This document shows, in pieces, positions 54,146 through 56,160 of a stretch of DNA of 64,000 nucleotides. The DNA is from Natrialba magadii ATCC 43099 (lineage in GTDB: Archaea; Halobacteriota; Halobacteria; Halobacteriales; Natrialbaceae): contig NC_013922.1 in the NCBI RefSeq assembly GCF_000025625.1, positions 2,294,001 to 2,358,000 of the forward strand, read 5' to 3'. A program made the position numbers and the translations under genes. How positions within the stretch are numbered: the first letter of the stretch is position 1; every line of letters starts with the position of its first letter. The notes below the pieces were generated by a model, which made no database searches, was not told where the DNA came from, and worked only from the letters and a program-made list of their open reading frames with translations.

Positions 54146-54571
54146 TTACTGTCGGAGTAGATACACCACCGTCGCGACCCAGAATGTCCCTGCAAAGGCG
54201 TAGATCGCGTCACCGGCCGGGTTCACGGAACCGAACTGAACCGATGCCAGCAGGTACGACAGAGCGGCGACTACCAGGGGACCGCCAACGTACGGAATCC
54301 AGTTCGCCACCGGGCTGGCACCTGAGTCGGTGTTCGCGCGTACATCGCGAACGAGGACTGCCGGCTTGACCTCCTCCTCCGCGTTCACGCGGAGGAGGAG
54401 GTCAATTGCCTGTCCGGCCTCGCCACGACTGAACAGGAAGGGAACGAACGGGAGGAACAAAAAGAGAAGAAGCGTATCCAGAACGACCCAGGCGGCAATG
54501 CTCACGGCGATACCGAACAGCAAGCCGGCGAGCGCAGTGGATGTTCGAGCTGAGAGTGACACTGAAACCAC
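54146..54571 (-). CDS. Small membrane protein with three to four helices
   Basis: A 141-residue membrane protein: two helices near the N-terminus (LAGLLFGIAVSIAAWVVLDTLLLFLFLPF), a polar loop (EEEVKPAVLVRDVRANTD) and two C-terminal helices (GGPLVVAALSYLLASVQF, YAFAGTFWVATVVYLL). No family is recognised. The loop coding region contains a perfect 18-bp palindrome (54366-54405) that encodes LLLRVNAEEEV-type sequence, so the DNA fold is under or despite coding constraint. Confidence 0.65.
   Translation of the reverse strand: MVSVSLSARTSTALAGLLFGIAVSIAAWVVLDTLLLFLFLPFVPFLFSRGEAGQAIDLLLRVNAEEEVKPAVLVRDVRANTDSGASPVANWIPYVGGPLVVAALSYLLASVQFGSVNPAGDAIYAFAGTFWVATVVYLLRQ
54366..54405. repeat. Perfect 18-bp inverted repeat inside a gene
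   Basis: Arms TTGACCTCCTCCTCCGCG (54366-54383) and its exact complement (54388-54405) flank the loop TTCA. The stem is unusually long and uninterrupted for coding DNA. It could form a cruciform in DNA or a strong hairpin in mRNA of the membrane-protein gene. Confidence 0.95.
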
Positions 54572-54964: not shown

Positions 54965-55449
54965 TGGGAAAGTACCACCTGCACTTACTGTCGAATTTTA
55001 ATAAGGGTGTCGGGTTGTTTCGAACGAAACTGGGGTATTACCAGCGAATATAGTCGTTTCATTGAGTTTCGATTGATAACACCCATGACTGATTCGACGT
55101 GAAAACACACATAATGAGCCGTTCATGTTTACGGTTCGTCGTTTCCAGAACCGAATATTTGATCGCGGTCTGACGACACACTCACACGTACAGTAAGCAC
55201 TCCACGTTCAAATCGACTCGGCCTGTCCGCGACAGACGAACCAGCAGCTCAGCAATGTAGTAAACAGGAAAGCAAATCGCGTGACGGGAAAAACGTCACG
55301 CGATTGCTTGCCGCCCTGAATTGGTCCCCGCTGACGCTTCGGCCCTCCAAGCGAAGCGTCACCAGAAAGATTCTGCTGGGACCACTTAAATGTGACGACA
55401 CACTCCCGTTTCGTGATGTGTTCCACCCGCCTCCAGCAGACCGCGGGGG
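54965..55449. other. Upstream gap of the PadR gene, containing a hairpin cluster
   Basis: The first 300 bp (to about 55265) show no gene or repeat that I recognise. The remainder is occupied by the inverted-repeat cluster described separately. An 81-codon minus frame across the cluster is not haloarchaeal in composition. Confidence 0.4.
55270..55384 (-). ncRNA. Candidate structured RNA (three hairpins and closing stem)
   Basis: Within 115 bp there are a 15-bp stem AAGCAA(A)TCGCGTGAC/GTCACGCGATTGCTT (55270-55285 with 55295-55309, one bulge, loop gggaaaaac), a 10-bp stem TGACGCTTCG/CGAAGCGTCA (55332-55341 with 55352-55361) and a 5-bp stem CAGAA/TTCTG (55363-55375). The last two are enclosed by TGGTCCC/GGGACCA (55322-55328 with 55378-55384), which gives a three-way junction. 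On the minus strand the 15-bp stem comes last and would act like a terminator. No known family is recognised; a mobile-element end is the main alternative. Confidence 0.4.
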
Positions 55450-55596
55450 TCACATGTGTTCTTCCTCGAGTACCCAGCCAAGCGCACGCTTGTAGTAGGT
55501 AAACATCTGCTCGACGCCGTCGTGATTCATCTCGTCGCTCTCGAGGTGCTCCGTCAGGAACTCGTACTGCTCGCGAATCTCTTCTTCATCACGCAT
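55450..55596 (-). CDS. Small acidic protein, 48 residues
   Basis: A short frame MRDEEEIREQYEFLTEHLESD followed by GVEQMFTYYKRALGWVLEEEH: two amphipathic helices, strongly acidic, like several small haloarchaeal proteins. Its composition and codon use are much better than those of surrounding frames. The stop codon overlaps the right arm of an ATGTGAC/GTCACAT inverted repeat. The longer in-frame reading to 55692 has un-haloarchaeal sequence. Confidence 0.6.
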   Translation of the reverse strand: MRDEEEIREQYEFLTEHLESDEMNHDGVEQMFTYYKRALGWVLEEEHM

Positions 55597-56160
55597 ACGA
55601 TAGCATACACCCGACAGACAAAAAAGGTCGCCGGGATAGCAGGGCGACCAGTGATACAGCCCGTTGTAGTTTGGTACGGGTGATCGCTCCACCTGTCAGA
55701 GCGATCACCGACAAAGCGCTACAACGACCCGTATAAGCCGAGACGAGTTTCCAAGCAACCCGATCACACTCCGCACCGAAATCGATGCTGATTGCCCGTT
55801 CGTCCGCATCGACGTCGACCGTACTCGAGTTCGGTCGACTGGCTCCTGGGCACAGGATGGAGTGGCGATCGGGTCAGTCTGTGGTTGGCGGGTGAATGGG
55901 TGTGAGAGCGTCGGAACCCGCAACCGCTCGTCCCGGTAACGCAGTAACGATTTGTTAGCGTTTCCGTGGCTCTCCGTTCTCGTCCGCTGTCGTCGTTTCA
56001 GCTAGTAGTCATTCGTTTGTTTTCACAACAGTCAGCAACCGCGACGGATGAACGGGGACGTGATCAGCCACGTTGTGGCTGCTCGCTACTCGTCGCCGCC
56101 AGTTGCATCTGTGAGGAGACTATTCGCAACTTAATTGTAGGCTCAGTGCAATGTTCGTGT
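55597..56160. other. Intergenic region with two hairpins
   Basis: It contains GGTCGCC/GGCGACC (55626-55632 with 55643-55649) and an 11-bp stem GGTGATCGCTC/GAGCGATCACC (55679-55689 with 55699-55709). The remaining 450 bp show no gene. A TATA-like cttaatt at about 56130 serves the flippase-like gene. Confidence 0.55.

Follow-up and report, generated by a model that had tools for sequence, protein, structure and literature searches.

A near-universal small RNA family of haloarchaea, uncatalogued in Rfam, at a hairpin-rich locus of Natrialba magadii

The window analysed here is a stretch of 64,000 nucleotides from Natrialba magadii ATCC 43099 (contig NC_013922.1). An earlier note, made from the sequence alone, had described positions 55270–55709 as a hairpin-dense stretch and a candidate RNA element, and its inverted repeats are all present. 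Comparison with other genomes gives good support for a predicted minus-strand small RNA gene in this region, autonomous and class-wide in haloarchaea. The RNA, of about 95–101 nt, runs from about 55362 to 55262, both ends being placed by comparison, and is delimited by alignments and covariance-model matches. A putative promoter lies upstream of it on the same strand (55384–55402), consisting of a BRE-like GTCGTCACA and a TATA-like TTTAAGT (55390–55384), the latter placed 28 nt ahead of the RNA's first conserved base. In 88 of 91 distinct copies, a T-rich TATA element occurs at one fixed distance (two adjacent offsets), while the background of TATA-like motifs is 3.1% of random 25-nt windows. 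The RNA is thus well supported as having a predicted TATA promoter of its own, and the transcript should start directly at the invariant 5′ hairpin.

The predicted RNA consists of two hairpins, a linker and a tail. Helix 1 (55332–55361) pairs TGACGCTTCG with CGAAGCGTCA (55361–55352 with 55341–55332) around the loop CTTGGAGGGC (55351–55342), and its stem sequence is invariant. In RNA form it reads (g)UGACGCUUCG CUUGGAGGGC CGAAGCGUCA (55361–55332), the 10-nt loop bearing GGAGGG. The following 22-nt linker, GCGGGGACCAATTCAGGGCGGC (55310–55331; GCGGGGACCAAUUCAGGGCGGC as RNA), begins with the nine nucleotides GCGGGGACC. Helix 2 (55270–55309) is a terminator-like hairpin, in which 55309–55294 pairs with 55286–55270 over 15–16 bp, with a bulged base at 55274 and the loop TTTTTCC (55293–55287); its RNA form is AAGC.. 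UUUUUCC ..GCUU (55309–55270). The pyrimidine- and T-rich tail TCCTGTTT (55262–55269), T-rich in nearly all family members, paralogs included, is probably a termination tract. The 211-nt stretch 55250–55460 has a folding energy far below that of its shuffles on both strands (z-scores of −4.26 and −3.89), and none of 200 shuffles was equally good.

The 10-bp and 15-bp stems of the earlier note correspond to helices 1 and 2, and both lie in the conserved RNA. The repeats do not form a single structure: they fall into three groups and only these two stems belong to the RNA. The proposed three-way junction was refuted by comparison with relatives: only 2 of 101 distinct copies preserve the upstream arm of its 7-bp closing stem (TGGTCCC/GGGACCA), and this stem uses the stretch between the TATA box and the transcript start. 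Likewise, the ATGTGAC/GTCACAT pair is intact in none of 79 relatives. Both pairings look like chance occurrences in Natrialba magadii.

The covariance model matched 290 of 292 Halobacteria genomes (completeness of at least 90%), representing 74 of 76 genera. In 48 representative copies drawn from many families, the first 53 nt vary only at the first base and at two loop positions, which leaves 50 that never change. A 21-nt stretch of this core was matched by plain text search at 96 places among the first 110 loci. There is usually one copy per genome; the genomes of family f5 mostly have two, as do all 15 Haloferax genomes. Outside the class, scans of 393 genomes of the phylum with Infernal's stricter filters, which very divergent relatives could escape, gave no convincing match; one weak match (G567, E 0.0066) was rejected as a family member, since it is without the invariant module on inspection. 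No Rfam 15 family matched the RNA: the best sub-threshold matches reached 14–17 bits against cut-offs of 49–114, and only tRNAs passed the gathering threshold in the 64-kb window. The family is real, near-universal in haloarchaea and uncatalogued in Rfam, a new family with unusually strong conservation, and the locus almost certainly holds an independent conserved non-coding RNA gene. With covariation and a promoter at fixed spacing, the structured new RNA that the earlier note had proposed is borne out. Only G034 and G032 in the class set were without a model match, by either loss or an assembly gap.

The two helices differ in the evidence for their pairing. In a structure-aware alignment of 69 distinct sequences, 15 of the 16 pairs of helix 2 show two-sided changes, with 185 double-change cells as compared to 50 in shuffles. 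Its covariation score was 0.287, as against 0.101 when shuffled and at most 0.054 with the partner slid, in an alignment that was fitted to the tested structure and is thus biased towards helix 2. A gapless alignment of 16 sequences pointed in the same direction (9 double-change cells versus 2.7 shuffled). RNAalifold on a plain MAFFT alignment failed to recover helix 2, and a model with the stated structure was therefore built. The covariation analysis suggested for this stretch thus came out in favour of helix 2. On the other hand, nine of the ten pairs of helix 1 never vary among the 69 sequences and none shows a compensatory change, so that its predicted pairing is based on perfect complementarity, its invariance giving no covariation proof. 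In the loop of helix 2, a run of at least four T is found in 89 of 101 copies, as compared to 0.75% of random 9-nt windows.

Divergent paralogs, found in a Haloferacaceae-like family and on plasmids, mostly keep helix 1 and GCGGGGACC. The remainder of the linker has been exchanged together with the whole of hairpin 2, and different stable hairpins with T-rich tracts behind them take their place. Given this exchange, the smallest conserved module comes to about 41 nt, and the 3′ hairpin shows the behaviour of a terminator. For the 3′ hairpin with its T-rich tract, selection on structure rather than sequence and the form of an intrinsic-type terminator are both well supported by the comparison. 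The search for viral, phage and plasmid spread returned two plasmid copies and no RNA match in the viral and phage collections. Loci L134 and L135 (on a plasmid of Halorubrum lacusprofundi) and L126 (on a plasmid of Haloarcula sp. GH36) are divergent extra copies carrying the 5′ module, with the ends of helix 1 changed and different 3′ hairpins; they are possibly mobile or decaying paralogs.

Upstream of the RNA, on the same strand, lies a gene for a 48-aa protein (55450–55596), a conserved neighbour but a separate gene with no family name. The protein is acidic (MRDEEEIREQYEFLTE...), and its homologues in 99 of 116 Halobacteria genomes are 69–100% identical. Searches against Pfam and NCBIfam gave nothing above cut-off and only a weak match to DUF2172. 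Of 80 loci with this gene, 76 have the RNA at most 1.4 kb downstream and on the gene's own strand. However, the gene is missing from 17 of the 116 genomes, of which 16 retain the RNA, and the two are at separate places in G012, G015, G020 and G072, far apart in G020 (169794 and 287197) and G072 (375134 and 1356027). Moreover, the second Haloferax copy (L118) adjoins a chemotaxis-transducer gene that is convergent to it. The RNA is thus independent of its neighbours. A joint function of the RNA and the 48-aa gene was rejected on account of the 16 genomes (of 116) that carry only the RNA, and the suggestion that the element includes the small protein gene reduces to a frequent neighbourhood.

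The RNA was compared with known classes. It has the features of haloarchaeal intergenic sRNAs of the hts10 type, being non-coding and intergenic with its own promoter. A decayed IS200/IS605-type end or omega RNA, the other origin raised in the earlier note, was discarded, as no transposase-like gene was recognised among the flanking ORFs, there is normally one copy per genome, phage and viral collections gave no match, and conservation is class-wide. Neither box C (RUGAUGA) nor box D (CUGA) is present on the RNA strand, which excludes a C/D box sRNA. An H/ACA sRNA was rejected as well: that class has a guide pocket inside its hairpin and an ACA/ANA box at the 3′ end, whereas the 10 bp of helix 1 run without interruption up to a 10-nt loop and the conserved end is GCUUUCC, with no ACA box. 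A cis-regulatory leader or riboswitch, for which every copy should have a conserved same-strand gene downstream, was rejected, since the L118 copy faces the convergent transducer gene and a terminator-like hairpin closes the RNA. Nor is it H225.2R, a conserved sRNA of 96 nt, which sits by HVO_1727, between the TBP/Orc1 genes and 16S rRNA.

One family member appears to have been studied already. According to PMC3956466, the Haloferax volcanii sRNA hts10 (HVO_2213s, chromosome 2078656–2078816, forward strand) was predicted, detected by sequencing and deleted, with conservation reported for 18 other haloarchaeal genomes. The deletion lengthened the lag on acetate and altered growth slightly, all mild phenotypes. 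The gene order at L118 is transducer, RNA, gene, 78-aa protein (counted from its ATG) and TrkA-like gene, and HVO_2212 has 78 residues (PMC12850539). Because gene order, strand and the length of HVO_2212 match, hts10 appears to be the second Haloferax copy of the family, an assignment made from synteny and not from the H. volcanii sequence. A discrete transcript of the family is indicated only indirectly, through this synteny. It is listed at 161 nt, as compared to about 95–101 nt for the RNA here, and the Natrialba magadii copy in the window is the other paralog, the one beside the 48-aa gene. Our literature search found no description of that copy or of a class-wide family, and a literature text search with the RNA motif found nothing. 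Haloferax sRNA132 (PMC6560208) likewise has a gene that stands alone, with BRE/TATA, and its RNA comprises two stems and a linker that is single-stranded, but it is confined to Haloferax and its linker is pyrimidine-rich, whereas the RNA here is class-wide with a purine-rich linker. By analogy only, bacterial seed-plus-terminator and protein-sequestering RNAs of the CsrB and 6S kinds share a 5′ functional module, a 3′ intrinsic-type U-rich hairpin and a GGA loop, although there is no sequence relationship to them and no known haloarchaeal partner.

The best overall explanation, which we hold to be reasonably probable, is that the autonomous RNA acts as a ribonucleoprotein (RNP) through its invariant 5′ module. 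The working part would be helix 1 together with the GGAGGG loop and the GCGGGGACC linker, and a partner, most likely a protein, would recognise it directly; the RNA would then act in trans, either as a regulator or by serving an RNA-binding protein as decoy or scaffold. Direct recognition is favoured because helix 1 shows no compensatory change, because pairing with a target would not hold both arms of a stem constant, and because neither a complementary target nor any enrichment was found. The complementarity of loop, linker and tail to rRNA was no better than shuffled in the scanned loci (rRNA plus flanks). Short patterns of the linker complement were not enriched in one genome (9 sites, itself included, versus 8 for the control), and a genome-wide search for near-perfect linker targets with at most three mismatches returned only the linker itself and one chance-level site. 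Recognition by a protein, as against action by base pairing, is given slightly less than an even chance. Since the loop of helix 2 is U-rich, and binding to U-rich RNA and to sRNAs is described for archaeal Lsm proteins (PMC10779274), the 3′ hairpin would be a plausible docking or stability site for haloarchaeal Lsm, which the sequence suggests as a candidate partner.

A core that hardly varies in 290 of 292 genomes stands in full contrast to most H. volcanii sRNAs, as 22 of the 27 in the deletion study are reported to be confined to one species (PMC3956466), and may point to a central role. It is conceivable, though we lean against it, that the RNA is a housekeeping RNA of Halobacteria, as ubiquitous as expected of SRP or RNase P RNA, that forms an RNP via the ~41-nt module with a function new to archaea. 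Against the RNP explanation counts the mild phenotype upon deletion of hts10, the presumed second copy, although the remaining copy could be compensating.

The strongest rival to the RNP explanation is a trans-acting antisense sRNA, in which the GGAGGG loop and the GCGGGGACC linker would be seeds for C-rich mRNA stretches and the 3′ hairpin a terminator and Lsm site. Its architecture would be like that of the bacterial seed-plus-terminator sRNAs, the two invariant segments in loop and linker are G-rich, and earlier work treated hts10, a probable paralog, as a regulatory sRNA. However, invariance extends to the stem bearing the loop, although pairing alone would not require it, and the searches for linker targets described above speak against it; we regard this reading as possible but the less likely of the two. 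Archaeal 16S rRNA carries CCUCC at its 3′ end, complementary to GGAGG. An RNA directed to the ribosome could use the Shine-Dalgarno-like GGAGG, present in the loop of essentially every copy, to pair with this anti-SD and tune translation, but only 5 bp would form, the loop–16S energy is no better than shuffled and the invariant stem is left unexplained, which makes such a role improbable. An element acting at the DNA level, such as an operator or an origin-like palindrome, would account for helix 1 as a perfect 10-bp DNA palindrome of invariant sequence; it is very unlikely, as it gives no reason for a second hairpin that covaries while its sequence is free, for a U-rich loop and a T-rich tail, or for the exact promoter register. 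Least credible of all is that the conserved stretch is a leaderless small protein gene (GTG ACG CTT ...) or the 3′ UTR or leader of a neighbour: a 50-aa frame is open in Natrialba magadii and the 48-aa gene is often directly upstream, but a 1-nt loop indel (CTTGG/CTTTGG) shifts the frame between identical flanks, any of the four bases may precede TGACG, the 3′ half is of variable length, and the RNA has its own promoter, occurs without the 48-aa gene and, at L118, faces a convergent gene.

The RNA offers a covariance model, a defined gene whose promoter is fixed and, in Haloferax, a model organism with two paralogs, and merits an Rfam family.

Two further repeats lie in the window. The 11-bp stem at 55679–55710, which had been taken as part of the RNA element, belongs to an unrelated palindromic repeat at 55645–55735, separate from the RNA. 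This is an imperfect palindrome of about 85 bp, CCGTTGTAGTT..GGTGATCGC..GCGATCACC..CTACAACG; it is found again at two more places in the Natrialba magadii genome and at 15 in a relative (G018). Its fuller copies, GATACGG.CCGTTGTAG...CTACAACGATCCGTATC, start with GATACGG, end with CCGTATC and are MITE-like. The other, at 54366–54405, is a perfect inverted repeat (TTGACCTCCTCCTCCGCG/CGCGGAGGAGGAGGTCAA) within a minus-strand gene for a membrane-protein-like product of 141 aa.
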